NCBI RefSeq assembly: GCF_032302195.1
Contig: NZ_CP135275.1
Coordinates: 6,797,501-6,861,500 of the forward strand
Direction: 5' to 3'
Length of the DNA stretch: 64,000 nucleotides
Source: Paenibacillus sp. MMS20-IR301
Lineage (GTDB): Bacteria; Bacillota; Bacilli; Paenibacillales; Paenibacillaceae
In this document: positions 5,320 through 40,364 of the stretch, piece after piece
How the letters are laid out: every line of letters starts with the position of its first letter
Position numbering within the stretch: the first letter of the stretch is position 1
The notes under the pieces: model-generated
Told to the model about the DNA's origin: nothing
Seen by the model: only the letters and a program-made list of their open reading frames with translations
Databases searched by the model: none
Made by a program: the position numbers and the translations under genes

Positions 5320-5418
5320 TAAGGCACTTGAAGAAGCTGTTATTGGAAATCGAGTCAAGTAATATGACATGTTATCGCCGATAGCTGGTTTCTTATCTGA
5401 ATGGACGAATAGAATAAG

Positions 5419-5491: not shown

Positions 5492-5547
5492 GTATACGAC
5501 AGGAATTGCTTTTCACTATGCGGATGTATGTATTCGTGTGGTGTGGC

Positions 5548-7087: not shown

Positions 7088-7102
7088 GAAGGAGTGAGCA
7101 TA

Positions 7103-21058: not shown

Positions 21059-21685
21059 TTACAGGGCAACGCCTGAGTCCGGTTCAGTGATCTGCATCAG
21101 CAGCGGGGTGACCTTGTAGCCGTTGACCGGGGCCAGATCCTGCGAGCAGGAGGAGAGGGCGGCGATTACATCTGTCAAAGCCAGTAGGGCGACATAATCA
21201 CCGGGCCGGGAGAGCGGCTCTTCAATTACGTAGTCGAGATTCTCGTCCAGTGCATTGTTCATGAACCAGTTGATGGGGTCCGGCAGCTCCTTATGGCCCA
21301 GCTGATATTTGTGAAGCGCCTTCTGCAGGTTATCATGGCAGTTCGGATGCTCCTCCAGCCCGAAGTCAACTTTATACCGGTAATAGTCGCAGGCCGGAAA
21401 AAAGAAATCATGTCTGCCCACCGTATCCATCGTCAGCTGCATCAGCGGCCGGCGGCGGTTGCTGTAGAGGCCGTCGCCGGGCTTCAGCCGGATGCTGCTG
21501 AGCGAGGCCCGCATATGTACGGGAGAGACATGCTCGTCAGGGTCAGCGGCATTGTAGCAGACGAAATCGCCGACCTGCTTGCCTTCGGTATCGATGATGT
21601 AGAGCGTCTGGCCTTTACGCACAAGTGCACTTCTGCCTTCGTAGGCGGGAACGAAAATTTCTTCGACTATTCTTCCTTTGGTCAT
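21059..21685 (-). CDS. DUF1989 (urea carboxylase-associated family) protein
   Basis: A 208-residue protein of the DUF1989 family, recognised from the GKQVGDFVCYNAADPDE, RRRPLMQLTMDTVGRHD and CHDNLQKAL blocks with conserved His, Asp and Cys residues. Family members accompany urea and guanidine carboxylases, and some act in carboxyguanidine deimination. Here it ends the microcompartment operon after the cyclase-family gene, with a 25-base gap and AGGTG before the ATG. A role in handling a nitrogen-rich purine breakdown product is inference. Confidence 0.8.
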   Translation of the reverse strand: MTKGRIVEEIFVPAYEGRSALVRKGQTLYIIDTEGKQVGDFVCYNAADPDEHVSPVHMRASLSSIRLKPGDGLYSNRRRPLMQLTMDTVGRHDFFFPACDYYRYKVDFGLEEHPNCHDNLQKALHKYQLGHKELPDPINWFMNNALDENLDYVIEEPLSRPGDYVALLALTDVIAALSSCSQDLAPVNGYKVTPLLMQITEPDSGVAL

Positions 21686-21710
21686 GATCCAGTCACCTGC
21701 CTTCTATAGT

Positions 21711-22394
21711 TTATTCGATGAATACCGCGACAGCGCGGACTGGAGAGCCGGTGCCCCGGCGGATCCGGAGCGGCAGCCCGAAATACAGGAACCGCTTCTG
21801 GGCGATCAGATGCAGGTTGCAGAGGTTCTCGGTGTTGGTCATCCGGTATTCCCGGCAGATCAGATGTCCGGAGAACAACGGGTCGAGCGGATTGTCGATG
21901 GAGGGTGCATCAATGCCGATATTAATAATTCCCTGCTTCGCCAGCCATCCGGCAGCCTCGTAATCCAGCCCGGCATACCGGGTCAGCCATTCTTCGCTGC
22001 CGTAAGCGCGGTTATAATGACCGGTATAGAGCAGTACAATATCGCCTTTATCCAGATGGAGATGATCCTTGTGCAGCGCCTGTTCCAGGTCATAGCGGGT
22101 AATATAGGCATCCGGTGAGATGTGGGACAGGTCCAGGCAGACAGCCGGTCCGTAAAAATACTCCAGCGGCATCTCATCAATCGTCGGCCCGAGCGGATCG
22201 TATTCGTATATGGCATCGCTGTGGGTGGGACCGTGTTCGTTAATCAGCAGATTATTGGTGGCGAACTCGAAGCCGAGCCTGCTCTTGCTCTCGGCATGGC
22301 TCATATTGGGAAAGATCATCGTCTTCTGATGGGGCGGGAATACCGGCATGCCCTGATAGATTTCCTGGGACAGATCTATGACTTGAATACCCAT
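21711..22394 (-). CDS. Cyclase/kynurenine formamidase-like metal hydrolase
   Basis: A 227-residue member of the cyclase family (PF04199). The metal-binding region reads INEHGPTHSDAIYEYDP, equivalent to the HxGTHxDAP motif, with GxD and SIDN-type blocks towards the C terminus. Family members hydrolyse amides or cyclic amides. Start ATG 22394 has AAAGGAG seven to eight bases upstream; an open frame continues 24 codons further without a ribosome binding site. It lies between adenine deaminase and DUF1989 in the same operon, so it probably acts on a purine-derived amide or ureide. Confidence 0.82.
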   Translation of the reverse strand: MGIQVIDLSQEIYQGMPVFPPHQKTMIFPNMSHAESKSRLGFEFATNNLLINEHGPTHSDAIYEYDPLGPTIDEMPLEYFYGPAVCLDLSHISPDAYITRYDLEQALHKDHLHLDKGDIVLLYTGHYNRAYGSEEWLTRYAGLDYEAAGWLAKQGIINIGIDAPSIDNPLDPLFSGHLICREYRMTNTENLCNLHLIAQKRFLYFGLPLRIRRGTGSPVRAVAVFIE

Positions 22395-22434
22395 GGGATG
22401 GCTCCTTTCTAATTCAGAAAAAGGGTAAACGGTA

Positions 22435-24249
22435 CTAGGCGAGCGGCGGCAGTACGGTGAAGGCATCGGCGTCGATCAGGCCGATATCGGTGATTTTCCA
22501 GGCCGGGCTGGTGACGAGTGAGAGGAAGGAGAGATGCATGAACGGCACATGCAGGGTGCAGCCCAGCTCCTCACGGGCCAGCCGGTGCAGCTCGCTGATT
22601 CTTGCGCTCATCTCTTTGCCGGTCAGCTCATCGGTCATCAGCCCGCCGATCCGCAGCGGCAGATCACCGACGACCTTGCCGCCTTCAATCATGGCAATGC
22701 CGCCGTCCATGGCGATGACCCGGTTGACGGCTGTTACCATATCGGCATAATTGGTGCCGGTGACGATGATGTTATGCGTGTCGTGGGCCACGCTTTCGGC
22801 AATGGCGCCTGCCTTAAGCTGCATGCCGCGGACGAAGGTTTTGCCGATCTTACCGCTGCGGCCATGCCGCTCTACCACAAGCAGGGGCAAGAGATCCTCC
22901 TGAACGGAAGGCTGCACAACACCATCCTGCACGGTAGCGGTATAAATGCCGGAACCGGTCAGGTTCTGGTCCGGAATGACCTCGATGGCGCGGATACGGA
23001 CTGTTCCGCTGGCACCTTCCGCAGAGAGCTGCAGGTCAGCGAGCTTAACCGGTTTCCGCTTGACCGACTTTTTCACGGATTCGGGATAGATATAGGAGGG
23101 AATCTCGCGTGTCAGCTCACCTTCGCTGGCAACCTTGACTCCGCTGATGTACACCCCGGCAATGGTCATTTGCACCAGGTCGCTGATTACGGCAATGTCG
23201 GCTTTTTTGCCCGGAGCGAGTACTCCGATATCCTGAAAGCCGAAATGAGCGGCCGGATTGATAGTTGCCATCTGAATGGCTTCAACCGGATCGATACCGG
23301 CGGCGATGGTCCGGCGGATGATATCGTTCATGTGGCCGTTCTTCAGCAGATCCTCCGGCACCATGTCATCCGAGACCAGAATAGCCCGCCGGGAATCCAT
23401 GCCCTCCTCGGTGATTACCCGGATGCATTCCGCCATATTGCGCTGGGAGGAGCCTTCGCGCATGAATACACTGACCCCGTAACGCAGCTTCTCCATCATT
23501 TCTTCCTTGGTTGTAGTCTCATGGCAGGAGACATGACCGCCGCCGCAGATGATATGGGCAGCCAGCTCGGGGCCCGACAGGCCGGGGGCGTTGCCCTCGA
23601 TGCTTTTGCCGATAGATTTGGCATAAGAGACGGAAGCGAGCAGATCATCGATCAGGTATGGGGCATTCCGGTAGACCGGATGGACGTTGCTGAAGCCCTG
23701 CAGCTCACCAATGCCTTGAACAAGGCCGTCTGCCAGCAGCTCCGCCATATCCTTAGAAGTGATGTCTGCACCCGCCGTCTCAAGGCCGGGCACATCAGGT
23801 GTGAGGCAAGGCACCGTAAACAGCACGCGGTTTGGCAGGGTCTTGGCTTCATCAATCATTGCTTTCATTCCGGGAACCCCGAGTACATTGCCGATCTCAT
23901 GCGGATCGGCCACCAGGGTGGTCGTTCCGGTGGGAATAGACAGCTTGGAGAATTCGGTAACGGTCAGCATTGCACTCTCGAAATGCATATGGGAGTCGAT
24001 AAAGCCGGGACTGATGAATTTGCCGCGCATGTCCTCGACCACCGTAGACGGGCCGATCAGCTTGTCGGCCTTACCGACAAGGAGAATCCGGTCGCCTGCT
24101 ACGGCAACATCTCCTTCGTAGATTTCACGGGTTATTACGTTAATGATGTAGCCGCCTTTCAGAACAAGGTCGGCCGGATGCCGGCCGGAGAGCAGGACAT
24201 CAATCATACGCCGCCGCTGGATGGCATCTTTGATCTCTGTTGTAAGCAT
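22435..24249 (-). CDS. ade: Adenine deaminase
   Basis: A 604-residue metal-dependent deaminase converting adenine to hypoxanthine and ammonia. The amidohydrolase HxH is His87/His89 (DSHMHFES), and the Ade signature DPHEIGNVLG starts at Asp115. The C-terminal adenine deaminase domain begins near residue 415. Length is normal for Ade. GGAGGAGG lies ten bases before the ATG and the EutN stop is four bases upstream, so the gene is in the BMC operon. B. subtilis Ade works in the cytosol; here the neighbours suggest encapsulation or association with the shell, but no clear terminal targeting helix was seen. Confidence 0.93.
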   Translation of the reverse strand: MLTTEIKDAIQRRRMIDVLLSGRHPADLVLKGGYIINVITREIYEGDVAVAGDRILLVGKADKLIGPSTVVEDMRGKFISPGFIDSHMHFESAMLTVTEFSKLSIPTGTTTLVADPHEIGNVLGVPGMKAMIDEAKTLPNRVLFTVPCLTPDVPGLETAGADITSKDMAELLADGLVQGIGELQGFSNVHPVYRNAPYLIDDLLASVSYAKSIGKSIEGNAPGLSGPELAAHIICGGGHVSCHETTTKEEMMEKLRYGVSVFMREGSSQRNMAECIRVITEEGMDSRRAILVSDDMVPEDLLKNGHMNDIIRRTIAAGIDPVEAIQMATINPAAHFGFQDIGVLAPGKKADIAVISDLVQMTIAGVYISGVKVASEGELTREIPSYIYPESVKKSVKRKPVKLADLQLSAEGASGTVRIRAIEVIPDQNLTGSGIYTATVQDGVVQPSVQEDLLPLLVVERHGRSGKIGKTFVRGMQLKAGAIAESVAHDTHNIIVTGTNYADMVTAVNRVIAMDGGIAMIEGGKVVGDLPLRIGGLMTDELTGKEMSARISELHRLAREELGCTLHVPFMHLSFLSLVTSPAWKITDIGLIDADAFTVLPPLA

Positions 24250-24252
24250 AGG

Positions 24253-24534
24253 CTATAAGCCTCCTCCTCTGGGACAATCTACACTATCTACAATTCCGAC
24301 AATGGCCGCATCGACTGGAGCATTCGGATGCTGCGTGGCTCTTGAAGCTACGCTGCCAACCGCGTATAGGATGGTCTCCCCGATGCCCGCGCCTACGGTG
24401 TCAACTGCAATAACCGGCTGACCCGCAGACGTATGATCAGGAAGGATGGGCTGCACAATCAGCAGCTTGGCACCAACGAGATTCTCGTCTTTACGCGTAG
24501 CCACGACGTGTCCTGTAATGATTCCCAGCTTCAT
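24253..24534 (-). CDS. BMC vertex shell protein (EutN/CcmL family)
   Basis: A 93-residue EutN/CcmL (BMC-P) protein, the pentamer that caps microcompartment vertices. It begins MKLGIITGHVVATRKDENLV and contains the family's AVDTVGAGIGE and the VGIVD ending. Start 24534 was chosen for GAGGTG eight bases upstream; 15 in-frame codons upstream were dropped. Presence of this family indicates a closed polyhedral shell. Its gene lies between the flavoprotein-like gene and ade. Confidence 0.93.
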   Translation of the reverse strand: MKLGIITGHVVATRKDENLVGAKLLIVQPILPDHTSAGQPVIAVDTVGAGIGETILYAVGSVASRATQHPNAPVDAAIVGIVDSVDCPRGGGL

Positions 24535-24550
24535 GTGATAGTCACCTCGA

Positions 24551-25309
24551 TTATTCGAATCCTGCATGGATAATTTCAATTCCGTAATGCCGGGCAGTGT
24601 CTCTGGCCAGCGGAGTAATTATGGATGGCCCGTTCAGGCGGATGGCGGTCCTGCCCAGCCCGGCAGCCCCGCGGATATCCTCTGCAGTCAGCACCTGCTT
24701 CCCGGGCGGTGCAGCACCTGCGGACACCCAGCTGCTAATGCCGGAGGGGGTAAGCAGCTTGATTCCGTAACCGGCTATAGTGGATACCATACCTTCTATT
24801 CCCGCTTTCAACAGGGGACTGGCCTGTGATAGACCCCGCTCCCCCCAGAGGTAATGGTCCGGCTGGGCTCCTAGAGTCAGAGCACCTACAGGCTTGCCGG
24901 CACATAAGGCCTCGATAATCAGCCTTACGAAGGGATGCCCGGTATCCAGCTGGACAAGCCGGGAGAGGAGGGAGAGCGAAAGTACAGGGATGAACAAGGC
25001 TTCCGCATCGGCTGATGTTGGCAGTACAGACTGCCCGGGGCGGATGAAATCATCCACTCCGGTGCAGGCGGCGAACTGTCTGGTGCTGCCCGTATCAAGC
25101 AGCGGATCATCAACCCATAAGCGCAAGCGCAGCCGGGGCTGGCCTGCACTTAAGCTGCGTACAGCGGCATACCCTTCCTCCATGCCGATAAAATGCCCGG
25201 CCAGCAGCACCAGCACCCGGGGATGATCCTCGTTTAATTGTGCCGCTCTGGAGCGGTAAGACAACCCCAGCAGGGCATTCTCAGCAAGCGTGCTATGCCG
25301 GCTGTCCAT
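24551..25309 (-). CDS. BMC-associated flavoprotein-like protein
   Basis: A 252-residue protein not assigned with certainty. The start of the fold (HPRVLVLLAGHFIGMEEG) and the pattern LFIPVLSLSLLSRLVQLDTGHPFVRLIIEALCAGKPV (split here: LFIPVLSLSLL, then FVRLIIEALCAGKPVGAL) resemble flavoproteins of the PF02441 fold found in other microcompartment loci. FMN binding and an electron-transfer or scaffold role are inference. No strong ribosome binding site precedes the ATG; the BMC-H stop is nine bases upstream, so coupling is likely. Confidence 0.55.
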   Translation of the reverse strand: MDSRHSTLAENALLGLSYRSRAAQLNEDHPRVLVLLAGHFIGMEEGYAAVRSLSAGQPRLRLRLWVDDPLLDTGSTRQFAACTGVDDFIRPGQSVLPTSADAEALFIPVLSLSLLSRLVQLDTGHPFVRLIIEALCAGKPVGALTLGAQPDHYLWGERGLSQASPLLKAGIEGMVSTIAGYGIKLLTPSGISSWVSAGAAPPGKQVLTAEDIRGAAGLGRTAIRLNGPSIITPLARDTARHYGIEIIHAGFE

Positions 25310-25317
25310 AGGAGCGC

Positions 25318-25599
25318 TTATTCAATGCCTTTGGACAGTAAGGCGCGTTCCACTTCACTGTGCGGGCGCGGAATGACATGGACAGACACCAGCTCCCCAA
25401 CCCGCTTGGCGGCTGCGGCTCCCGCATCGGTAGCGGCTTTTACCGCGCCGACATCCCCGCGGACCATAACGGTAACGAGACCGAAGCCGATCTTCTCGTA
25501 GCCACAGATCTCCACGTTGGCAGCCTTCACCATGGCGTCGGCTGCTTCGATTGCACCAACAAGCCCTTTAGTTTCAATGAGTCCAAGTGATTCTCCCAT
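25318..25599 (-). CDS. BMC-H hexameric shell protein
   Basis: A 93-residue single BMC domain of the PduA/EutM/CcmK family ([20 protein letters not shown], then [19 protein letters not shown] and [10 protein letters not shown]). Hexamers tile the shell facets and their central pore passes small metabolites. GGAGG lies nine bases before the ATG. Typical length with no extension. Confidence 0.96.
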
Positions 25600-25697
25600 A
25601 ATAAAAAACCTCCATAAGTTTAGTTGTATTCAGAAGCAGCCTGCTGTAAATTGACTGCACGGCGAGGGGACAAGGCGACGGTATATTGGCGTGGGAA

Positions 25698-26195
25698 TTA
25701 CTGCTCAGGTTCTTGATCAGCGGGGCCTGGGTCAGGATTAGAGCTGGTGCCGGAGCTGGAATCAGAGCGAGAGTCTGCGCCAGGGCTGAGATTGGGATCA
25801 GGGCTAGATTCGGGATTAGAGGCTGGGTTAGAGCCAGGATTAGAATGAGAGCCAGATCTTTGAGGCACGGCATAGCGCGAATTTGGATCCGCAACTGCTG
25901 GTTGTACAGGCTGGAAGCGGGACAGTATTTTGCTGTTCACATCTTCATGTGCCTTAGCGATAACACGGGCGGACACGACGGTGCCGATCCGCATGGCTGC
26001 CACTTTACCCGCATCCACTGCAGCACCGACTGCGGCGACATCACCGCTGAAATGAATGGTGACGCCAAGTGAACCGCCAACGCCGATGATCCTCTCAACG
26101 GCAATCAGCTGTACATCCGCCGCTTTCAGCGCTGCATCTGCTGCGGAGACGGCGGTAGTGTATCCGAGAGTTTCAATCAATCCGAGAGCCAGCAT
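25698..26195 (-). CDS. BMC-H shell protein with Ser/Asn/Pro-rich tail
   Basis: A 165-residue protein: BMC domain in residues 1-90 (MLALGLIETLGYTTAVSAAD; SGDVAAVGAAVDAGKVAAMR), then a tail of about 70 residues of low complexity rich in Ser, Asn, Pro, Asp and Gly. ATG 26195 has AGGAGG eight bases upstream; 33 codons of open frame before it were rejected. Tailed BMC-H proteins are known (EutK, PduK, CcmO relatives), but this tail matches none that I recognise. It could line the lumen or recruit cargo. Confidence 0.9.
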   Translation of the reverse strand: MLALGLIETLGYTTAVSAADAALKAADVQLIAVERIIGVGGSLGVTIHFSGDVAAVGAAVDAGKVAAMRIGTVVSARVIAKAHEDVNSKILSRFQPVQPAVADPNSRYAVPQRSGSHSNPGSNPASNPESSPDPNLSPGADSRSDSSSGTSSNPDPGPADQEPEQ

Positions 26196-26374
26196 GTTCA
26201 GCTCCTCCTTTGTAAATTCTCCTTCGCAGTACGCGTTAAGGCAAAGTGATACGGACAGCCCGCCCAAGGTTAAAGTCAATCCGTTCAAAGTCAATCAATT
26301 CAAAGTCATCAGCTCAAAGAAATTCGGCTCAAAGTTATTCTGTGAATTCAGCTTGCCGGGTATAGAGCTTATTA

Positions 26375-27664
26375 TTATTTATCTGTGAGCTCTGTTAAGG
26401 CGGGTAAAACAGCAGCCAGCTCTGCGTCAGACCCGCTGAGTATGCAGTAGCTGCGCTCTGCACGAAGACTCAGGCTTGTGCCCGGGCAGCTGACGAGCAG
26501 CCGCTCTGCGCAGCCGAGGCTATTCCAGCGTGAAGCGGCATCGATGACGGCGATGGCATCCTGCTGGCCGGCAGCCAGATGCCGCCGCAGCAGAGGGCCC
26601 GGCTGCAGACTGGAGTAACCCCGGATCTGCCGGATGGAATCGCGCTGCAGAGCTCCGGCCAGTTCTGTCAGCAGGCGGGCCAGCAAGCCGGCATCGTTGC
26701 TGAGCAGCAGCAACTCGAACCCGCCGCTGCTGCCGCCCCACTGGACATCTGCTTCCAGTGCGGGATTCGCGGCCAGCAGCGCCTCTACGGCGAACAGCTG
26801 GCCCGGATGGCTGGCTGGAGCGCTCAGCACACCGGCTGAGCTATAGCCGCGGCCCGCAGTGCCCAGCACCGGGCGGAGCCTGCTGCTGATTACAGGGAAC
26901 AGCCAGGCATCCAGTGTTTCATCCCGGAGCAGTGGGAGCGGGCTGTCCGGTGAAGTGTTGCCCTGGCCGTATACTGCGACCGGCGGAACCGGAATCCCTC
27001 TGAAGTGGCTGGCCTCCGGGCAGCTGTCTTGCCGGCAGAGGCGATCTCCTGCCGGATGCCCGGGGCTGTGCACCTGCGCAAGACCGCCCGCACAAGTTGC
27101 AGGCGGGCAGGAAGCGTCGCCGGAAGCGGCAGGCTGCGCAAGCCCGTCAGGCAGTGAGCGCAAGAGCAGTGGGGACAGACAGCGCTCGGCGAAGCTCTGT
27201 GTATTCCCGGAAGCCGGCCCGGCCGGGGCAGGCAGGGTTGCTGCGTCTCCTGAGGGCCGCTCAGGTGAGCGGCTCCCGGTTTGCAGCTGTGCAGCATCCA
27301 GCGAATGGGTGTCGTACGACGAGCCGGGCAAACCGGGCCAGCCGAGCGGGGCCAGCCGCTTCGAGGCCTGCTCCTTCTGGTAGTTGATCCGCTTGATTCC
27401 GCCGTTAGGCTTGAGGCAATCCCCAGGCTTCACGCATGTGCTTAGGCAGTCCGCTTTGCTGTCCGGCGAATAGAGATGGCCGACTGGAGAGAGTGCAGGA
27501 GCGTGAGCTGAATCGGAACTGGCGGCTGGTGCGTGAACGGGAGCATGTGCTGAAGCAGAAATTCCAGCTGGAACGTGAGCCGTAGCCGGACTTGCAGCGG
27601 CGGAAGGAGTAGTGCGATTCCGCTCCAGAACCTCAGTAACTATGCTCTTCATGAAATCAGACAG
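26375..27664 (-). CDS. Putative divergent trimeric shell protein with long disordered N-terminal region
   Basis: About 429 residues. Residues 1-18 (SDFMKSIVTEVLERN) look like an amphipathic encapsulation helix. About residues 20-235 are low-complexity, Pro/Ala/Ser/Gly-rich with scattered Cys. The last 190 residues read like two weak BMC-like halves (FAVEALLAANPALEADVQWG ... LLLLSNDAGLLARLLTELA; AIAVIDAAS ... YCILSGSDAELAAVLPAL), in the manner of EutL/BMC-T. AGGAGG sits nine bases before an in-frame CTG at 27664, while the first ATG (27652) is 21 bases away, so a CTG start is suspected. Identity is inference; another BMC-associated protein is possible. Confidence 0.5.
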   Translation of the reverse strand: MSDFMKSIVTEVLERNRTTPSAAASPATAHVPAGISASAHAPVHAPAASSDSAHAPALSPVGHLYSPDSKADCLSTCVKPGDCLKPNGGIKRINYQKEQASKRLAPLGWPGLPGSSYDTHSLDAAQLQTGSRSPERPSGDAATLPAPAGPASGNTQSFAERCLSPLLLRSLPDGLAQPAASGDASCPPATCAGGLAQVHSPGHPAGDRLCRQDSCPEASHFRGIPVPPVAVYGQGNTSPDSPLPLLRDETLDAWLFPVISSRLRPVLGTAGRGYSSAGVLSAPASHPGQLFAVEALLAANPALEADVQWGGSSGGFELLLLSNDAGLLARLLTELAGALQRDSIRQIRGYSSLQPGPLLRRHLAAGQQDAIAVIDAASRWNSLGCAERLLVSCPGTSLSLRAERSYCILSGSDAELAAVLPALTELTDK

Positions 27665-28413
27665 GGGTAATCACCTCCTATAGGTAATGCGTACAGTGTG
27701 AGTGGCTTCCCGGGCAGCCGTGAAATTTGGGGTAACTTGTACAGAGACGGCGGCCAAGTTAGGGAGAGCACTACCTGATGTCTTTAACTGCACTTTGTAC
27801 AACTAAATCGTCTGATGTTCTGCCTCTCACCTGTTTAGTTGTATTTCGTACAATTAAATCACCAAGAATGAGTGGTTTTGCTTATTTAGAGAATATTTAG
27901 TTGTACGAACTGCAGTTATAAGCTGCGAGCGTAGCTGTACGTTGCTTTTAATTGTATAGAATACAACTATCGTATCTGTGAGTTCCCCATAGAATGTATA
28001 TGGACAATGGATTCTATGGATAGCTGTGAAAGTCCGGCGTGCGTTAGTATGTTACTGGAATGGACGTGGCTTGCCGGAGTGCGAATGTTGTATTTACCAC
28101 GATATCAGCTCTGGTGCTCTATTAGTTATTAAGAAATCACTGTGTCTGATAGATCTGGTAGAGGTCAGAGTAAATACTGCTATTCCTCGTGATCCATGCG
28201 GAGCGTACAGCCCTTATGTCCCCGAAAATAGAACGTTTAGCACTGCTAACGGAGCGTAGTCCGCTTATTGCTTCTTCAAGAGGCAGATTTGAGGCAAATG
28301 CCTCCGCATTAAGTACGCTGGTGTCCGTTAGGCAGCAGGATGAAGGCTTCCAACGGAAATAAGGGCCAATGTATCCGTAGGATGTAAGTGAATTCTCTCT
28401 CCGGAAGCCCTGG
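27665..28413. other. Long intergenic region inside the BMC locus
   Basis: About 750 bases without a convincing gene, splitting the BMC operon after the first BMC-H. The 27.8-28.0 kb part carries repeated TTTAGTTGTA/TACAACTAAA palindromes. The 28.0-28.4 kb part shows nothing recognisable; two short open frames there lack ribosome binding sites. A second promoter for the distal genes may lie here. Confidence 0.5.
27796..27969. repeat. Cluster of TTTAGTTGTA/TACAACTAAA palindromes
   Basis: TACAACTAAATC (27799), GTTTAGTTGTATTTCGTACA followed by ATTAAATC (27832-27859), ATTTAGTTGTACGA (27895-27908) and TTTTAATTGTATAGAATACA followed by ACTA (27946-27969). Alternating orientation gives several inverted pairs. 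They may be operators or a dispersed intergenic repeat of this genus. Confidence 0.6.
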
Positions 28414-28680
28414 CTACAACAGCATCCGCGCCAGATCAGAGTGCGGGCGCGGGATAACATTTGAAGCAATGAGCTCTCCTCCAGTACGCGGGTAAGCAGC
28501 AATACCCGCGTCAACGGCAGCCTGGACTGCGGCGACATCACCTTCGACGATTACTGTAATAAGCCCCGATCCTACCCGCTTGAAGCCGGTCAGCTTCACG
28601 TTTGCCGCCTTGCACATCGCATCCAGCGCTTCCAGTGCCGGAGTAAGTCCCCGGGTCTCGATCAATCCGATAGCTTGCAT
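28414..28680 (-). CDS. BMC-H hexameric shell protein
   Basis: An 88-residue single BMC domain ([54 protein letters not shown]). GGGAGGTG lies five bases before the ATG. It is the first shell gene of the operon, just downstream of ubiD. It differs enough from the 25.3 kb BMC-H to give a mixed-facet shell. Confidence 0.96.
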
Positions 28681-28830
28681 AATACACCTCCCGATAAGCT
28701 TTGGCTGTTGAGCAAATTAAACTGAAGTATTGAGAGCCGCGTTGCTGATGAACCCTGGTTAAGGTGCCAAGTCTGCAGCTGCAGCAGGCAGTTGCAGCAG
28801 GCAGTTGCAGCAAGCGTCCTGCTCTGCGCT

Positions 28831-30174
28831 CTACAAATATTCCGCCAGCTCGATCTCCTCCTGGCCGGGGATGGAGGTCCGCTTGTAATGCTCAGCTTCG
28901 GCCAGCGGATAGGTAGCATCGATGCCCATTTTGGCCGAGACGCCCCGCAGGTTATGCGACGGCTCAAGCGGCGAGCCTTTGGCCCCGCTGACGATGAAGA
29001 TGTCGAGGTCGGCCTGGACGCGGGTGGCGATCGCCCACTCGACATCGAGCGGGTCCAGCAGATCGACGTCCTCATCGATGACGACAGCATGCTTCAGATC
29101 CTTATCGCCTGCGAAGGCGGCGAGCAGGGCGGTTTTGCCGTCGCCCTCCTGAACCTTCCTGATCCGGATGACCGCATGGTAACGGCCGACACCGCCCATG
29201 GTGATGTGGACATCCTTAACGCCGGGGACAACCTGGCGTACTGAGCCCAGCAGGGCGATTTCACGGGCAATCGCCATCGGCAGCTTCTCCTCATAGCTGG
29301 CGGGGAGAATGGTCTGCCAGACCGGGTTGTTCCGGTAGGTAACGGCGGAGAATTCTACAACCGGCTGCTCCGTGCGCGGGCCGTAGTATCCGCCGAGTTC
29401 CCCGAACGGGCCTTCCGGCTCGCGGACCCGCGGGAGAATCCGGCCCTCGAACACCACCTCGGCTTCAGCCAGCACCTCAAGGCCGATTGTCTTGCAGCGG
29501 ACGACCTCAAGCGGCTGGCCGAGCAGGGCAGAGGCCACCTCCAGCTTGTCGGCATGGAACAGATGGGTGCTGATCTGGGAAGCCAGCACGACTGCCGGAA
29601 CAATCCCGAACATGAAAGCCGCCTCCATCGGCTCGCCGCGTTCCTCTAGCTCTCTGAACTGCTGGAACAGCTCAGGCGAAGAGATCAGTATGCTGGTCCG
29701 GTTGCCGTCCAGCAGCTGCATCCGCCGGATGGAGGTGTAACGCTTCTGTCCGTCAGCGCCTCTAACAACCATGACACCGGAGACATAGTAGGCTCCGCTG
29801 TCCAGAGCATTATAGGTGCACACGGGGAACAGCTCCTCCAGCCGGATGCCGGAGGTAAGCACATTCTCGTGCACCGGAGCCTGAGCGCTGCGCTTCGTAG
29901 GCAGCGGACGGACTATGGCCTCGATTAGCCGGGGCAGCAGCTCCGCAGGCTGCATCCCCATGCTCTCGGCCAGCAGCTCCTTGGAGCCGCCAAGCCCGGC
30001 AGCCATCGGCATCCTATACCCCTTCACCCTCTGGAAGAGCATAGGCTGCATGCCCTTCACGGCCTTAATCACTGCCCCAAGCTCAAACCGCGGGTCCACC
30101 TCCTTGCGGATCTTCAGCAGCCGGCTGCTGTGCTCCCAATGCTCCAGCAGCTCACGAACATTAATAAAAGCCAT
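28831..30174 (-). CDS. UbiD family decarboxylase
   Basis: A 447-residue prenylated-FMN-dependent (de)carboxylase of the UbiD family, cytosolic or compartment-associated. Recognisable blocks are PEGPFGELGGYYGPR (active-site and metal region), KDVHITMGGVGRYHAVIRI and the C-terminal VIDEDVDLLDPLDVEWAIAT. Start 30174 has GGGAGGTG eight bases upstream; an open frame continuing a further 149 codons runs through the leader RNA and was rejected. UbiD enzymes act on aromatic or heteroaromatic acids. Here an imidazole carboxylate from purine ring opening is an attractive but unproven substrate. The cofactor enzyme UbiX is encoded 9 kb away behind the same leader. Confidence 0.9.
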   Translation of the reverse strand: MAFINVRELLEHWEHSSRLLKIRKEVDPRFELGAVIKAVKGMQPMLFQRVKGYRMPMAAGLGGSKELLAESMGMQPAELLPRLIEAIVRPLPTKRSAQAPVHENVLTSGIRLEELFPVCTYNALDSGAYYVSGVMVVRGADGQKRYTSIRRMQLLDGNRTSILISSPELFQQFRELEERGEPMEAAFMFGIVPAVVLASQISTHLFHADKLEVASALLGQPLEVVRCKTIGLEVLAEAEVVFEGRILPRVREPEGPFGELGGYYGPRTEQPVVEFSAVTYRNNPVWQTILPASYEEKLPMAIAREIALLGSVRQVVPGVKDVHITMGGVGRYHAVIRIRKVQEGDGKTALLAAFAGDKDLKHAVVIDEDVDLLDPLDVEWAIATRVQADLDIFIVSGAKGSPLEPSHNLRGVSAKMGIDATYPLAEAEHYKRTSIPGQEEIELAEYL

Positions 30175-30267: not shown

Positions 30268-30386
30268 AAAAAAAGGAAGCCGCAGATATAGAGAAACAAG
30301 ATTCTCTACATCGCGGCTTCCTTCATTCTGTGAACAGAAATGGGGCAAACCTTTATGCTCTAGCGGCTGACCAGGATACAATCGAG
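30268..30386 (-). ncRNA. Leader RNA with terminator upstream of ubiD
   Basis: On the minus strand: GATTGTA, CTGG, a variable stretch, AAGGTT-GCC, ATTTCTGTT-ACAGA, then TGAAGGAAGCCGC leading into a roughly 20-base terminator stem (30275-30321) and seven T. The leader before ubiX has the same blocks. From the stem's GCGGC to TACAATC the two align without a gap over 71 bases, conserved at both ends and variable in the middle. It looks like a terminator-type riboswitch or protein-controlled attenuator. I do not recognise a known class. Confidence 0.75.
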
Positions 30387-30427
30387 ATACAGCCGTTATA
30401 AGTGATATTCGCGTAAGCTTAAATCCC

Positions 30428-30471
30428 ATTATAGCGGTATAACGCAAAAAGTAAATGATTAATGTTACATT
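30428..30471 (-). promoter_or_regulatory. Promoter and operator block of the ubiD/BMC operon
   Basis: On the minus strand TTTACT, 16-base spacer and a perfect TATAAT, preceded by AATGTAACATTAATCA. The 19 bases covering the -35 box and upstream block match the promoter of the DUF2294/ubiX operon at 18 of 19 positions with identical spacer length. Confidence 0.75.
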
Positions 30472-31225
30472 ACATAACCTTGCTGCTGGTGCGGAAGGTA
30501 CGCGGGGAGAGCCCGATCTCTCTTTTGAACATATTGCAGAATTGGGCATCATTGACGAAGCCGGCAGCAGCAGAGACCTCAGAGATATGCATCTGGGTGT
30601 GCAGCAGCAGGGACTTGGCATAATCCAGGCGTTTCAGTAAAAGATAACGGTGCGGGGACTCGCCAAATCTTTCCTTGAACAGATGACGGAAACGGTCATA
30701 GCTGTAACCGGACATTTCAGCAAGCGTAGCTACCGAGAGCTTGTGCCGGTAATGCTCATTCATATAATTTAGCACATACTGCATCTGGTCCTCTGCCGGA
30801 GAATGGAAATCTGAGGCGCTGAGCAGCCGCTGGAGATACACCGTGATTTCGCTCATCTGCAGATTCAGCAGCTCGGCGAACCCGTCGCGCTTGCGCTTGA
30901 ATTCCTCATTCATCCGCTGCAGCGTCTGCAGGACCGTATGCTCCTTATCATCATCAAAAACACCGGACAGCGAATTGATAATCGGATTGCCGCAATGAAA
31001 GCCGACGAACAGCACCTCCGGGCTGGGCTGATGATTCTCGTCATGCTTGAAGTTAGGCGGAATCAGGCCGAAGCTGTTGGGGCGGAAATGATAGCTGCGC
31101 GGTCCGATACTGCAGGTGCCCTGGCCGTGGATATAGTACACAAGCTCGAAGCATTCATGCTGATGCGGAGGGATATAAGTATTCGCCTCATGCTCTGCAT
31201 TTACAATATATAGGACACGATCCAT
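30470..31225 (-). CDS. AraC family transcriptional regulator of the purine/BMC region
   Basis: A 251-residue regulator: N-terminal cupin (HQHECFELVYYIHGQG, about 22-37) and C-terminal double helix-turn-helix (about 150-250; LSVATLAEMSGYSYDRFRHL). CGGAGG lies seven bases before the ATG. Its stop codon overlaps the conserved promoter block of ubiD and it is divergent from the nucleoside importer. It is the best candidate for the activator that binds the GTAACATT block. The ligand may be a purine base or nucleoside. Confidence 0.88.
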   Translation of the reverse strand: MDRVLYIVNAEHEANTYIPPHQHECFELVYYIHGQGTCSIGPRSYHFRPNSFGLIPPNFKHDENHQPSPEVLFVGFHCGNPIINSLSGVFDDDKEHTVLQTLQRMNEEFKRKRDGFAELLNLQMSEITVYLQRLLSASDFHSPAEDQMQYVLNYMNEHYRHKLSVATLAEMSGYSYDRFRHLFKERFGESPHRYLLLKRLDYAKSLLLHTQMHISEVSAAAGFVNDAQFCNMFKREIGLSPRTFRTSSKVM

Positions 31226-31551: not shown

Positions 31552-32688
31552 ATGAAAAAGAATATGCTCGTTATATTGTTGCTGGCGGTAATGGTGCTGG
31601 TCGCTGCATGCGGAAACAACAAGTCCGGTAATGGTAATTCCGCCAATACGGGAAGTAATGCCGGGGGCGGGGAAGCGGCTGCTGGGGACAAGCTGAAAGT
31701 CGTGCTGCTGATCCCGGGGACGCTGGGTGACAAGTCGTTTTTTGATGCGGCGAACAGCGGTCTGCAGAAGGTAAAGGACGAGCTTGGTGCAGAGACTAAG
31801 GTTGTAGAGATGGGTGCGGACAAAACGAAATGGGAACCGACCTTTAATGATATCGCAGCTGAGGATTGGGATGTAGTGATCTCAGGCGGCTCGGAAATTA
31901 CGGAAATGTTCAATGCGACAGCAGAGGCCAATCCGGATAAAAAATTCATCAACTATGACACCGACATCGAAGAAGCTCCGGAAAATATGTACAACATGTC
32001 TTATTCGACCAATGAAGTCTCTTTTCTGGCCGGAGCGGTAGCAGCGCTTGCTACGCAGTCCGACATGCCAAATGCCAACCCGGAGAACGTGATCGGTTTC
32101 GTGGGCGGGATGGATATTCCCGGAATTAACGCGTTTCTTGTAGGTTACATCCAGGGTGCACAGTATGTTGATCCGGATGTAAAGGTTGCGGTATCCTATG
32201 CCGGCGATTTCGTGAACCCTGCCAAGGGTAAGGAATTGTCGCTGATCCAGTACAACTCGGGTGTGGATGTTATTTTCAACGTAGCGGGCGGTACAGGACT
32301 TGGGATCTTTGATGCGGCCAAAGAGAAGACGAAATATGCGATCGGTGTTGACTCTGACCAGGCCATGCTGCTGAAGGATACAGACAGTGATAAGGCTAAC
32401 CTGATCGTCACATCGGCGATTAAAAAAATCGATATGGCCATCCTCGGCGCAGTGAAGAAGCTGCAGGACGGCACGCTTGAGATGGGTAAACGCGATGTAC
32501 TGGGCTTCGTAGAAGACGGTGTGGGCATTGCTGAGAATGACATCTACACAAGCGTATTCCCGGCAGAGCTGCAGGCCAAGGCGGAAGAAGTGAAGCAGAA
32601 GCTGATCAACAAGGAAATTACGGTTGACAATGCTATGGGTATGGAGACCTCTGAGGTTGAGGCCATCCGTAATGCCGTTAAACCTTAA
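31552..32688 (+). CDS. BMP family nucleoside-binding lipoprotein
   Basis: A 378-residue lipoprotein (lipobox VAAC, Cys20) of the BMP/PnrA family, with a Gly/Asn/Ser linker and then the fold beginning KVVLLIPGTLGDKSFFDAAN. Family members (PnrA, NupN) bind purine and pyrimidine nucleosides outside the membrane. It begins the importer operon, followed by an attenuator-like hairpin and then ATPase and permeases. The nucleoside hydrolase three genes on supports nucleosides as substrate. Confidence 0.92.
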   Translation: MKKNMLVILLLAVMVLVAACGNNKSGNGNSANTGSNAGGGEAAAGDKLKVVLLIPGTLGDKSFFDAANSGLQKVKDELGAETKVVEMGADKTKWEPTFNDIAAEDWDVVISGGSEITEMFNATAEANPDKKFINYDTDIEEAPENMYNMSYSTNEVSFLAGAVAALATQSDMPNANPENVIGFVGGMDIPGINAFLVGYIQGAQYVDPDVKVAVSYAGDFVNPAKGKELSLIQYNSGVDVIFNVAGGTGLGIFDAAKEKTKYAIGVDSDQAMLLKDTDSDKANLIVTSAIKKIDMAILGAVKKLQDGTLEMGKRDVLGFVEDGVGIAENDIYTSVFPAELQAKAEEVKQKLINKEITVDNAMGMETSEVEAIRNAVKP

Positions 32689-32735
32689 GTTCATTAAGAA
32701 CAAATATGCTTAAATAAAAAAGTTTACAAAGCTCT

Positions 32736-32783
32736 GCAGTTGGCGGCTCTTCGTTTGGGAAGAGCTCCAGCTGCCTATTTTTT
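32736..32783 (+). terminator. Terminator between binding protein and ATPase
   Basis: Long imperfect stem (GCAG...CTCTTC with GAAGAG...CTGC) followed by ATTTTTTG. It probably lets through only part of transcription, keeping the binding protein in excess. Confidence 0.8.
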
Positions 32784-32818
32784 GCAGGGCCACTTAAGTT
32801 GAAAGGCGTTGATGACCC

Positions 32819-34381
32819 ATGGCGAACGCTCTGCTGGAAATGCGGGGAATCACCAAAGTATATCCGAACGGTGTTGTAGCCAACAAAGACGTTGAATTCT
32901 CCTTGCGTGAGGGTGAAATCCATGCGATTGCCGGGGAGAACGGAGCCGGTAAATCGACTCTGATGAAGATCATGTTCGGGCTGGAGGAGCCGAGTGAAGG
33001 CGCGGTCTATATCCGCGGAGAACAGGTGAAGCTGCAGTCCCCGCAGGATGCGATCGACCGGGGCATCGGCATGGTTCATCAGCATTTCATGCTCGTGCCT
33101 TCTTTTACTGTGGCTGAGAACATGGTGCTGGGCATGGAGCCGCGCAAAGGCGTGGGCTTCAATTATGCGGAAGCCGTGCGTCTGACCGAGGAAACGGCAC
33201 GTAAATATAACCTCTCTGTAAATGCCAAGGCGAAGGTGGAGGATCTGAGCGTCGGCATGAAGCAGAAGGTGGAAATTCTGAAGGCCCTGGTGCGCGGGGC
33301 CAAGATCCTGATCCTGGATGAACCGACCGCTGTGCTGACTCCGCAGGAGACAGAAGAGCTGTTCCATGAGCTGCAGCAACTGAAGGAACAGGGACATACC
33401 ATCGTCTTTATCTCGCACAAGCTGAAGGAAGTCAAAGCGATCTGTGACCGGATTACGATTATGCGCGGCGGCAGAAGTGAAGGGGTCCTCCAGATCAGTG
33501 AAGTCACGGAGCAGGAGATTTCACGGCTGATGGTCGGCCGGGATGTTGTGCTGAAGTACGATAAGGACAGTATCCCGGATGGTAAGCCTGTGCTTACCGT
33601 GAATCAGCTTAGCGCGCTGGACAGCCAGGGCAAAGCTCTGCTGTCAGAGATCAGCTTCTCGGTCCGGGAAGGCCAGATTGTCGGCATCGCGGGTGTTGAA
33701 GGCAACGGGCAAAGCCAGCTGATTGAGGCGCTGACCGGCGGTCTGCGCGGCGTGTCCGGCAGCGGCTCGGTCAAGGTGAGGGGGACGGATATCCGTGAGC
33801 TCGACATCTTAGGCATCCGCAGCCTCGGCGTGTCTTATATCCCGGAGGACCGGATGCGCCAGGGTGCGGCGGGAGAGGCCAGCATTGCGGACAACCTGAT
33901 CTCCACCCGGTACCGGGCGAAGGATATGAATAAGGGACCTTTCCTTAACGGTTCCAGGATTGCGGCTCTGGCGGTATCGCTCGTAGAAGAATTCAAAGTA
34001 CGCTGCTCCGGCCCGCAGCAGCAGATCGGTATGCTGTCCGGCGGCAATATGCAGAAGGTCGTTGTCGCGAGGGAATGCTCCACCAATCCGCAGCTGCTGA
34101 TCGCCGAGCAGCCGACCCGGGGCGTCGATATCGGGGCTGCGCAGTTCATCCATCAGAAGCTGCTGGAGCTGCGCTCGGCTAATTGCGCCACCTTGCTCGT
34201 ATCGGCCGATCTGAATGAGATTCTGGAGCTGAGCGACAGTCTGCTCGTCATGTATGAGGGCCAGATCGTTGCGTACTTCGAAGATCCTTCCGCCGTAAGT
34301 GAGGAAGAGCTGGGACTCTATATGCTGGGGATTAACCGGCAGGACAAAGAGCAGACCGGGAGGGCTGTAAACCATGTTTAA
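32819..34381 (+). CDS. Nucleoside ABC transporter ATPase (NupO type)
   Basis: A 520-residue tandem ATPase with two ABC domains. The N-terminal Walker A is GENGAGKST (about 41), the signature LSVGMKQKV and Walker B ILILDEP. The C-terminal domain has a degenerate Walker A (GVEGNGQSQL), with LSGGNMQKVVVARE and LIAEQPTRGVD, as usual in sugar/nucleoside importers of this class. It powers the two permeases that follow. Its stop overlaps the next start by eight bases. Confidence 0.94.
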   Translation: MANALLEMRGITKVYPNGVVANKDVEFSLREGEIHAIAGENGAGKSTLMKIMFGLEEPSEGAVYIRGEQVKLQSPQDAIDRGIGMVHQHFMLVPSFTVAENMVLGMEPRKGVGFNYAEAVRLTEETARKYNLSVNAKAKVEDLSVGMKQKVEILKALVRGAKILILDEPTAVLTPQETEELFHELQQLKEQGHTIVFISHKLKEVKAICDRITIMRGGRSEGVLQISEVTEQEISRLMVGRDVVLKYDKDSIPDGKPVLTVNQLSALDSQGKALLSEISFSVREGQIVGIAGVEGNGQSQLIEALTGGLRGVSGSGSVKVRGTDIRELDILGIRSLGVSYIPEDRMRQGAAGEASIADNLISTRYRAKDMNKGPFLNGSRIAALAVSLVEEFKVRCSGPQQQIGMLSGGNMQKVVVARECSTNPQLLIAEQPTRGVDIGAAQFIHQKLLELRSANCATLLVSADLNEILELSDSLLVMYEGQIVAYFEDPSAVSEEELGLYMLGINRQDKEQTGRAVNHV

Positions 34382-35420
34382 AGTAAAATATTTCGAGGCG
34401 ATCCGTACAGCGGCAGTCATTGTCATTGCGCTCTTTATTGCCTTTCTGATTATCTCGCTGGTCAGTGACCAGCCGGTGAAGACGATCGGCATCTTCCTGC
34501 TGGAGCCGTTCTCTACTAAAGGGCATATCGGTAATGTCATAGAGATGGCTATTCCGCTGATGTTCACCGGTCTTGCCGTCTCGCTCCTGTTCCGGGCCAA
34601 TATGTTCAACCTGGGGGCGGAAGGGATCTTCTATTTCTCCGGTGTGGTTGCTACTACATTAGCCATCCACCTCAGCCTGAACAGCTGGCTGCATCCGCTT
34701 GTAGCGATACTCGCAGGCGCGATTGTCGGGGCACTGCTGTCGGCTATTCCCGGAATTCTCAAAGCGAAGTGGAATGCCAATGAGCTGGTGACTTCGCTCA
34801 TGTTTAACAATATCCTGTTCGGGGTCGGACTGTACCTGCTGAACTACCATCTGCGGGATGCCAAGGCCTTCGCCAACGTTTCTTTTAAATTCGAGAAAAC
34901 TGCGCAGCTGAGCAAGCTTTTTGCCGGCACACGCATTCATACCGGGCTCATTATTGTGCTGGTGCTGATCGTGCTGGCCCATCTGTTCCTCTACCGGACC
35001 AAGTGGGGCTATGAGCTGCGGATGACCGGCGTGAACCGGGATTTCGCCCGTTATTCGGGCATGAAGACTGCCAAAGTAATCATTCTGGTTCACCTGATTG
35101 CCGGGTTCATTGCCGGGATGGGCGGCTCGGTGGAGGTGCTCGGGATGTACAGCCGGTTCCAGTGGACTTCACTGCCTGGTTACGGCCTGGATGGTGCGCT
35201 GGTGGCCATGCTGGCCAAGAACAATCCGCTTTCCGTCATCGTCTCCGCGCTCTTCCTGGCCTATATCCGTATTGGAGCCGACTTGATGGCGCGTCTGTCC
35301 GATGTGCCGTCCGAGATGATCTCGATCATTCAGGCGGTTATTATTCTTCTCATCTCGGCTGAGCAGTTCCTCAAGTTCTGGAAGAACCGGATGCTGCTGA
35401 AGGAGGCGAAGGAAGCATGA
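34374..35420 (+). CDS. Nucleoside ABC transporter permease (NupP type)
   Basis: A 348-residue BPD-transp-2 family permease with about nine to ten membrane helices (AMIPLMFTGLAVSLLFRANMFN-like entry, NLGAEGIFY motif near 78-86). It overlaps the ATPase gene by eight bases and the next permease by four (ATGA), showing tight coupling. Forms the nucleoside channel with the second permease. Confidence 0.92.
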   Translation: MFKVKYFEAIRTAAVIVIALFIAFLIISLVSDQPVKTIGIFLLEPFSTKGHIGNVIEMAIPLMFTGLAVSLLFRANMFNLGAEGIFYFSGVVATTLAIHLSLNSWLHPLVAILAGAIVGALLSAIPGILKAKWNANELVTSLMFNNILFGVGLYLLNYHLRDAKAFANVSFKFEKTAQLSKLFAGTRIHTGLIIVLVLIVLAHLFLYRTKWGYELRMTGVNRDFARYSGMKTAKVIILVHLIAGFIAGMGGSVEVLGMYSRFQWTSLPGYGLDGALVAMLAKNNPLSVIVSALFLAYIRIGADLMARLSDVPSEMISIIQAVIILLISAEQFLKFWKNRMLLKEAKEA

Positions 35421-39426: not shown

Positions 39427-39652
39427 GCTGCTTCCGGGCTGGCCCCTTCGGCCGCAGGCCGTTACAGCCCTGCCTAAGTCTCTCTCAGCGCTGCATCAGC
39501 TGCTTTCGGGCTGGCCCCTTCGGCCGCAGGCCGTTACAGCCTTGCCTAAGTCTCCCCCAGCGCTGCATCAGCTGCTTCCGGGCTGGCCTCCTCGTCCCGC
39601 AGGCCGGCACAGCCCCGCTAACCTTCCCCCCAGCGCTTCATCAACTGGTTAT
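39427..39652. repeat. 72-base tandem repeats derived from the ubiX 3' end
   Basis: Three units start at 39427, 39499 and 39571 with GCTGCTTCCGGGCTGGCC. The third runs into the end of ubiX: its CCCCAGCGCTTCATCA is coding, and the first two units carry the matching CAGCGCTGCATCA. The array therefore appears to have arisen by repeated duplication around the ubiX stop codon. Confidence 0.85.
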
Positions 39653-40228: not shown

Positions 40229-40345
40229 AAAAAAAGAAGCCGCAGACATAGAGAAGAGACTCTCTATCTCGCGGCTTCCTTCAGTCTGTAAACAGAAATC
40301 AGGCCAACCTTAGGCAGATTCAGCACACCCAGAGTACAATCCGGG
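40229..40345 (-). ncRNA. Leader RNA with terminator upstream of ubiX
   Basis: Second copy of the ubiD leader: GATTGTA, CTGG, AAGGTTGGCC, ATTTCTGTTTACAGA, TGAAGGAAGCCGC, terminator stem (40236-40278) and seven T on the minus strand. It sits between the DUF2294-like gene and ubiX, so it would control ubiX separately from the gene before it. Conservation is strongest in the 5' GATTGTA block and around the terminator. Confidence 0.75.
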
Positions 40346-40364
40346 CAGACCGGTATTCACTGAT

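Follow-up and report, generated by a model that had tools for sequence, protein, structure and literature searches.

A shelled locus of Paenibacillus sp. MMS20-IR301 likely belonging to the xanthine-utilisation microcompartments, with a riboswitch-linked front end, a hidden shell protein and a candidate leader RNA

The 64,000-nucleotide stretch of Paenibacillus sp. MMS20-IR301 analysed here (assembly GCF_032302195.1, contig NZ_CP135275.1, positions 6,797,501 to 6,861,500; hereafter the window) carries a bacterial microcompartment (BMC) locus on its minus strand. Together with genes located elsewhere in the window, this locus very probably specifies a protein-shelled compartment which breaks xanthine down to glycine. 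We consider it likely, and hold with some confidence, that it is a Bacilli-type xanthine-utilisation (Xau, or BUF1) compartment. The type itself is already catalogued: Axen 2014 (PMC4207490) described the cluster as BUF, possibly a third kind of microcompartment metabolism, and Ravcheev 2019 (PMC6620236) predicted the Xau compartment and its pathway, giving the enzymes by reaction type. The wiring of the system, a hidden shell protein and two enzyme assignments are new. The analysis offers a likely function for a DUF and for a protein wrongly named 'adenine deaminase', reveals a shell protein that escapes sequence searches and indicates a candidate new regulatory RNA.

Locus organization and conservation

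Along the minus strand, the locus reads UbiD, BMC-H, a 425-residue protein, BMC-H, BMC-H, a flavoprotein-fold protein, BMC-P, an Ade-like protein, a cyclase-family protein and DUF1989. Coordinates below are those of the window.

21059..21685, minus strand: DUF1989 protein (PF09347), proposed formiminoglycine iminohydrolase
21711..22394, minus strand: cyclase-family metal hydrolase (XauF; PF04199), proposed 4-imidazolone hydrolase
22435..24249, minus strand: Ade-like amidohydrolase (XauE; adenine-deaminase domains in Pfam, TIGR01178), proposed 4-aminoimidazole deaminase
24253..24534, minus strand: BMC-P shell vertex protein (EutN/CcmL; PF03319)
24551..25309, minus strand: flavoprotein-fold accessory protein, distant TIGR02536 relative (fold and weak profile)
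25318..25599, minus strand: BMC-H shell protein a (PF00936)
25698..26195, minus strand: BMC-H shell protein b, with a variable C-terminal tail (PF00936)
26375..27652, minus strand: putative hidden BMC-T shell protein, 425 residues (fold)
28414..28680, minus strand: BMC-H shell protein c (PF00936)
28831..30174, minus strand: UbiD-family decarboxylase (XauD; PF01977, PF20695, PF20696; TIGR00148 above cut-off), proposed 4-amino-imidazole-5-carboxylate decarboxylase

Several starts differ from those of the open reading frames (ORFs). The cyclase ORF opens at 22466, and orthologue starts point to 22394; orthologue length places the start of EutN at 24534 (ORF 24253-24579). The second BMC-H likely starts at 26195 (ORF 25698-26294) and UbiD, whose ORF ends at 28831, at 30174. 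Between the 425-residue protein gene and the first BMC-H gene lie about 750 gene-free bases (27665-28413) which may hold an internal promoter.

A preliminary description of this DNA, made from the sequence alone, had reported three BMC-H genes, one EutN/CcmL gene, UbiD, adenine deaminase, cyclase, DUF1989 and flavoprotein-like genes in a single minus-strand locus, and Pfam and fold searches confirm this content. PF00936 was found in three genes, which are its only matches in the 7.69-Mb genome, and EutN_CcmL in one. As that description also stated, aldehyde dehydrogenases, alcohol dehydrogenases and phosphotransacylases are lacking: none was matched by Pfam among the ten locus proteins. The locus combines a complete shell set (BMC-H, BMC-T and BMC-P, the BMC-T recognized by fold only) with the absence of the metabolosome core enzymes. 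The flavoprotein-like protein has no Pfam match and a weak TIGR02536 match (26.9 bits against a cut-off of 152.6); its model (predicted local distance difference test score 92, predicted template modelling score 0.79) resembles CoaBC/UbiX flavoprotein folds (E ~5e-5, template modelling score 0.4-0.6).

When 392 genomes of the order were sampled with this flavoprotein-like protein as the query, 29 gave matches. Besides the window's own, 28 loci were taken from this search, 24 from Paenibacillaceae and four (L058-L061) which were excluded from the count. All ten core genes are kept in the 24 Paenibacillaceae loci. The joint retention of the Ade-like and cyclase genes with the shell genes, on which the preliminary description had staked its reading, thus holds in 24 of 24. 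BMC-H protein a is 100% identical in 18 of these loci and 89-94% identical in the other six. A class-level scan, also a cyclase search, contributed 11 loci, six of them xau loci and five (L098-L102) in other contexts; among the other Bacilli loci the ten-gene core is complete in 5 of 6. Finally, a scan of named genomes with the cyclase alignment gave 503 loci, of which the best 80 were kept, so that distant relatives are under-sampled. A BMC-H gene is present in 71 of these best 80; several of the nine loci without one in the stretch examined are short contigs. The 71 BMC-bearing loci encode UbiD (71), the Ade-like protein (70), EutN (70), the 425-residue protein (65), DUF1989 (64), XauA (56) and XauC (56) within the stretches examined. 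Because the cyclase was the query for both the other Bacilli and the named loci, only ade tests conservation there, and it is kept in 6 of 6 and 70 of 71, respectively, the locus without it (L188) being on a short contig. Several Paenibacillus loci entered the set twice (e.g., as L037 and L160), hence rows overlap: the 112 Ade rows hold 95 unique sequences and the 108 DUF1989 rows hold 78. One Ade row, L173, comes from a short contig without BMC-H.

The four excluded loci belong to another family of the order and are SPU-like compartments with a Bmp-type nucleoside transporter. Kinship with these loci, which share EutN, BMC-H and a Bmp-type transporter, was considered and rejected. L058 and L059 were inspected gene by gene; L059 encodes DeoR-like, triosephosphate-isomerase-like and aldehyde-dehydrogenase-like proteins, as named by eye.

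Assignment to the Xau compartments

Bacillus fordii DSM 16014 is among the Xau genomes named in Ravcheev 2019 (PMC6620236), and we equate it, by the shared strain number, with Siminovitchia fordii DSM 16014, whose locus (L122) was recovered in our scan. The S. fordii order is xauA, xauC, ubiX, ubiD, BMC-H, the 425-residue protein homologue, BMC-H, BMC-H, flavoprotein-like, EutN, ade, cyclase, DUF1989, M20 and deaminase. Since the gene order of the window locus matches it, we assign this locus to the Xau type. The preliminary description had likened the locus to catalogued loci of unknown function, and this was right, the related loci being those called BUF (PMC4207490). Its broader proposal survives in part: degradation of a purine ring within a shell devoid of the usual metabolosome core still stands, but the organising enzyme is probably not an adenine deaminase and the substrate is best read as xanthine. 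The XauA, C, D, E and F set (two ring-opening hydrolases, two amidohydrolases and an aromatic decarboxylase) is identified by family rather than by activity.

With Xau/BUF1 the window shares the core, the gene order of S. fordii DSM 16014 and the lack of an aldehyde dehydrogenase core. It differs in that the front-end genes stand apart from the locus, at a distance of 13 kb, and are preceded by a xanthine-type riboswitch, that the genome has neither a PF02738 xanthine dehydrogenase nor a formiminotransferase, and that a nucleoside transporter and a nucleoside hydrolase adjoin the locus; moreover, DUF1989 and the hidden BMC-T are given putative roles here. In PMC6620236, the formiminotransferase XauG is placed outside the shell and is absent from the clusters of two Bacillus genomes.

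Some points weigh against the assignment. PF02738 has no match in the window's genome and matches in 11 of 24 genomes, while xanthine dehydrogenase was reported in all Xau genomes of Ravcheev 2019 (PMC6620236) and placed outside the shell; as the enzyme is accessory by these authors' account, we file the window as a Xau variant. Furthermore, the Xau type was drawn up on the locus of Alkaliphilus metalliredigens, whereas the comparison covered S. fordii and clostridial relatives such as L190, L192, L193 and L196. Lastly, the sixth of the other Bacilli loci, L093, lacks EutN, and EutN only, between its flavoprotein-like and Ade-like genes. A search of a single literature library returned no experimental study of a Xau compartment.

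The front end and its xanthine-II-type riboswitch

The system extends past the minus-strand locus that was initially delimited, to xauA-xauC (5675-7663), ubiX (39618-40172), two leader RNAs and a riboswitch. The preliminary description missed the front end, xauA and xauC, lying in the same window.

5402..5505, plus strand: purine riboswitch aptamer, xanthine-II type (RF00167, 53.7 bits against a gathering score of 37)
5675..7087, plus strand: XauA homologue, dihydropyrimidinase/allantoinase-type amidohydrolase (Amidohydro_1), proposed to open the xanthine ring
7094..7663, plus strand: XauC homologue, isochorismatase-family hydrolase (PF00857), proposed to remove the carbamoyl group of 4-ureido-imidazole-5-carboxylate

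The window's XauA is a 66% match to the protein that occupies the XauA position in L095, and its closest chains in the PDB are L-hydantoinase 1gkr, then allantoinases; the XauC homologue gave a 73% match. Searched with the L095 protein, 11 of 17 genomes, the window's included, have a close xauA (64-66%). A purine riboswitch lies 119-170 bases before xauA, on the same strand, in all 11 Paenibacillus xauA loci scanned, at 170 bases in the window. The window's riboswitch has G at position 51 (U51G) and a two-base insertion before J3-1, in the numbering of Hamal Dhakal 2022 (PMC9295807). Of 25 Paenibacillaceae genomes, 19 carry its core motif, as against 0 for the reversed pattern. A search for xauA in 17 of the 25 left six genomes with no close match, and all six lack the motif.

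PMC9295807 reports that the allB RNA (92 allB) of Paenibacillus sp. DMB5 binds xanthine with a dissociation constant of ~36.5 uM, that it rejected the other purines tried and that its architecture suggests an ON switch. U51G, the J3-1 insertion, the genus and the position upstream of an allantoinase-type gene are common to that RNA class and the window's riboswitch; the class also has a two-base insertion in J2-3, which the RF00167 alignment does not resolve, leaving a gap in the case for xanthine-II. While PMC9295807 treats the downstream gene as allB (pucH), we infer that this allB is an orthologue of xauA and assign the gene to the microcompartment pathway, with xanthine as the predicted ligand. 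The xanthine role of Xau has so far rested on gene content (PMC6620236). Because the riboswitch on the entry gene belongs to a class for which xanthine binding has been measured, xanthine as the substrate gains independent evidence, and the system becomes testable in a Paenibacillus.

A second xanthine-II-type motif was observed before a gene for a 348-residue protein, oxygenase-like by eye, in eight Paenibacillus genomes (L229, L234, L238, L240, L242, L246, L249 and L255); this context agrees with the 'dioxygenase' associations listed for xanthine-II in PMC9295807.

A probable hidden PduB-like shell protein

The 425-residue protein (26375-27652), whose translation may start at a CTG at 27664, is modelled as a fifth shell protein, a PduB-like BMC-T which the preliminary description had missed. 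Its predicted layout comprises a signal-peptide-like N-terminal helix, a disordered linker with an NYQ motif and a C-terminal PduB/EtuB-like tandem BMC domain (26378-26935). The tandem BMC fold extends over this whole domain, 181 of whose 186 residues align with 3io0 and 4fay. Pfam gave no PF00936 match, and a profile search gave a weak match to EtuB (E 0.034). Because PF00936 is not matched, we propose that the protein works like a PduB-type BMC-T and do not file it as one by sequence. It diverges from PduB and EtuB by its ~15% identity and by the linker of ~220 residues between helix and shell domain.

PduB is an earlier example of a shell protein that bears a signal sequence (PMC12108088). 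The signal-sequence pattern is found in all 95 orthologues of the 425-residue protein. The pattern is loose, and its value as evidence for a role in encapsulation is lowered by its occurrence in folded N-termini as well (78 of 82 XauC and 93 of 113 BMC-H a proteins).

A leader RNA common to ubiD and ubiX

The following features link ubiD with a distant ubiX.

30270..30397, minus strand: structured leader RNA with intrinsic terminator, copy 1, before the ubiD-BMC operon
30470..31225, minus strand: AraC-family regulator upstream of ubiD
39618..40172, minus strand: UbiX-family protein (PF02441), proposed flavin prenyltransferase serving UbiD
40232..40356, minus strand: structured leader RNA with intrinsic terminator, copy 2, before ubiX
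40365..40724, minus strand: gene for a small 119-residue protein directly upstream of leader copy 2

A UbiX-family gene is present in 22 of 24 Paenibacillaceae stretches. In about 126 bases the leader combines the core AAGGTTNGCCYNATNTCTGTTYACAGANTGNAGGAAGCCG with an upstream hairpin and an intrinsic terminator, and it precedes both ubiD and ubiX. Among 100 genomes of the genus, a model built from 18 copies gave strong matches (at least 88 bits) in 23. Locus positions are known for 19 of these 23, and in them no strong match falls outside the xau locus; the window's own genome contains just the two copies at this locus. Covariation is modest, 6 of 29 pairs changing on both sides in at least one sequence. 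Weaker matches (35.8-39.4 bits) occur ahead of the xau operon, whose leading gene is xauA or encodes a permease, in five other Bacilli loci (L092, L094, L095, L096 and L171). Since opposite-strand matches to the leader terminators alone reach 34.2 bits, these are only suggestive; matches below that level, as well as L157, on the other strand, were not counted. Among known Rfam families only microRNA and small RNA models were returned, with E values up to 5 and all below gathering scores, and these were rejected.

We put forward, as a tentative and rather doubtful joint proposal, that the leader is an undescribed ligand-sensing RNA (or a dedicated antiterminator target) reading a pathway metabolite, so that two RNA switches would act on the organelle, a xanthine switch at its entry and a second one at the compartment, and that DUF1989 is a formiminoglycine iminohydrolase providing a folate-free exit to glycine. 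The leader could instead be a mere transcription terminator of the upstream gene which senses nothing, a reading that we likewise hold doubtful. In its favour, the intrinsic terminator is the strongest feature of the leader, the ubiX copy directly follows the 119-residue protein gene, and the ~34-bit opposite-strand matches mean that weak matches in other Bacilli prove little. Yet the ubiD copy follows a different gene, that of the AraC-family regulator, and has nevertheless retained both the hairpin upstream and the AAGGTTNGCC...CTGTTYACAG core; moreover, two strong copies are found in genomes where ubiX lies apart from ubiD.

Homologues of the 119-residue protein, which has no Pfam match (the label 'DUF2294' is provisional), recur beside xau genes in other Bacilli. 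This protein is a possible partner of the leader.

DUF1989 and a proposed exit to glycine

The solved relatives of the cyclase-family enzyme are kynurenine formamidase and isatin hydrolase, and DUF1989 follows it in the locus. C99, H113, C116 and C180 of DUF1989 are invariant in 78 unique sequences, and we take them to correspond to the Cys3-His zinc site of DUF1989 relatives. Across the best 80 of 503 named loci, 64 carry DUF1989 only, six FtcD only, none both and ten neither. The formiminotransferase domain FTCD_N (PF07837) was found in none of 31 genomes, all of which have DUF1989 in the locus, and in 1 of 14 control genomes. Two Neobacillus loci display an exchange of these modules. In Neobacillus mesonae (L126) the cyclase gene is followed by those for DUF1989, M20 and deaminase. 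In N. notoginsengisoli (L128) the gene order is the same up to the cyclase; FtcD and FchA genes, with identities supported by Pfam, stand directly after the deaminase gene, and neither DUF1989 nor M20 is present in the stretch examined. Since DUF1989-M20 is replaced by FtcD-FchA at the same place, we think it probable that DUF1989 deiminates formiminoglycine. Carboxyguanidine deiminase (Schneider 2020, as cited in PMC11271267), one of the characterised DUF1989 relatives, would by analogy perform chemistry close to the removal of the imino group from formiminoglycine. An M20 hydrolase could then deformylate the product: an M20 gene lies in the same stretch in 45 of 64 DUF1989-bearing BMC loci, and all 15 Paenibacillaceae genomes searched encode a homologue, that of the window's genome matching at 69% across residues 2-323 (of 387).

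Glycine as the end product draws on S. fordii, where the cluster is followed by tandem glycine riboswitches and then by genes interpreted as glyA and serine dehydratase. The gene names GlyA, SdaAA, SdaAB and SsnA are used as presumed labels.

Several observations limit these conclusions. The DUF1989/FtcD split mostly tracks Bacilli versus Clostridia, so that the Neobacillus swap is the main independent event. Four of the ten loci with neither gene carry BMC-H (L179, L192, L193 and L196). Glycine riboswitches were found in one of seven loci scanned, that of S. fordii, and a glyA-like gene in 5 of 80 named loci, within limited flanks.

It is rather unlikely that DUF1989 stands off the main path and handles a side product such as guanidine or carbamate, formiminoglycine being left to an unrecognised enzyme. 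The carboxyguanidine deiminase among its relatives (PMC11271267) and the four BMC loci with neither DUF1989 nor FtcD in the stretch examined would suit such a role. Against it are the invariant Cys3-His residues, the position after the cyclase, the lack of co-occurrence with FtcD, the absence of FTCD_N from the 31 genomes and the Neobacillus swap.

Behind the xau locus of L179, whose examined stretch has neither DUF1989 nor FtcD, lie genes resembling, by eye, those for formate-tetrahydrofolate ligase and FolD. In L180 (Carboxydothermus islandicus) the cyclase matches the locus enzyme at 66%, and FtcD, FchA and serine-dehydratase-like genes lie in the same stretch with no BMC-H; this may be a shell-free version.

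The Ade-like enzyme and the substrate of the compartment

The Ade-like protein, which the preliminary description had named an adenine deaminase, probably is not one. It scores 466.5 bits against TIGR01178, whose cut-off is 472.5; three locus-type relatives in other genomes score 473.9-475.5, just above. It shares with adenine deaminases the overall family and most active-site motifs and differs by Asn220 in place of the His of the GH motif and by SCHE for the DHE-type motifs. Residue 220 is Asn in all 112 rows, whereas His occupies this position in every one of 14 paralogues, 13 from the searched genomes plus the Carboxydothermus enzyme of L180, and in the solved adenine deaminase 3nqb. We take the replaced His to be a metal ligand. 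In clostridial relatives the Ade-like protein is grouped with XauA, XauC, UbiD and the cyclase. These sequence features indicate that it is probably a 4-aminoimidazole deaminase (XauE).

The nature of the compartment's substrate can be weighed against two other readings. One, which we find improbable, holds that the true substrate is another nitrogen heterocycle converging on the amino-imidazole carboxylate, xanthine being one of several entries. Six Paenibacillaceae loci lend it support and weaken the case for xanthine: their genomes lack a close xauA (best match 31-36%), and the loci keep the core and M20, with a creatininase-family gene and a different isochorismatase instead of xauA/xauC. 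The window's genome, on the other hand, has xauA, xauC and the xanthine-type riboswitch, and xauA is present in 56 of the 71 named BMC loci. The six loci (L051-L053 and L055-L057) may represent a non-orthologous replacement of the front end.

Very improbable is a compartment built around adenine, deaminated inside to hypoxanthine while the other enzymes act on later purine products, because, for all that the closest solved relative of the Ade-like enzyme is 3nqb (E 1.9e-78) and the TIGR01178 cut-off is missed by only 6 bits, Asn replaces the conserved His, the genome carries two other full-length Ade-like paralogues, no PF02738 xanthine dehydrogenase is there to carry hypoxanthine on, and the xauA riboswitch bears a xanthine-type signature.

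Input genes and proposed pathway

Genes on the plus strand between the AraC-family regulator and ubiX suggest how xanthine may arise.

31552..36352, plus strand: PnrA-type nucleoside ATP-binding cassette (ABC) transporter, with binding protein, ATPase and two permeases (PF02608, PF00005, PF02653)
36398..37354, plus strand: inosine-uridine-type nucleoside hydrolase (PF01156)
37357..38757, plus strand: ADP-ribosylglycohydrolase-family protein (PF03747)

Because the genome lacks PF02738, encodes a protein that matches the S. fordii cluster's deaminase at 73% and carries the nucleoside transporter and hydrolase, guanosine or guanine, then xanthine, is the likely input. Purine nucleosides would enter through the PnrA-type transporter and be split by the nucleoside hydrolase, and guanine would be deaminated to xanthine. 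Xanthine would bind the xanthine-II riboswitch and turn on xauA-xauC. XauA is predicted to open its six-membered ring, and XauC to remove the carbamoyl group, yielding 4-amino-imidazole-5-carboxylate, which would cross the shell. Inside, UbiD, using prenylated flavin mononucleotide from UbiX, would decarboxylate it to 4-aminoimidazole; XauE would deaminate this to 4-imidazolone, and XauF would open the ring to give formiminoglycine. DUF1989 would hydrolyse the latter, releasing ammonia and leaving N-formylglycine, which an M20 enzyme encoded elsewhere could convert into glycine and formate.

Free 4-aminoimidazole and 4-imidazolone are unstable. The shell, presumably composed of three BMC-H, one BMC-P and the hidden PduB-like BMC-T, would retain these two imidazoles together with the enzymes that consume them; we agree here with the preliminary description, which had suggested an unstable imidazole intermediate as a plausible reason for the shell. 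The disordered, signal-peptide-like arm of the BMC-T may tie the core to the shell, and the conserved leader RNA before ubiD and ubiX may gate both operons by attenuation.

At the start of the window, fourteen tRNA genes occupy positions 37-1554 of the plus strand.

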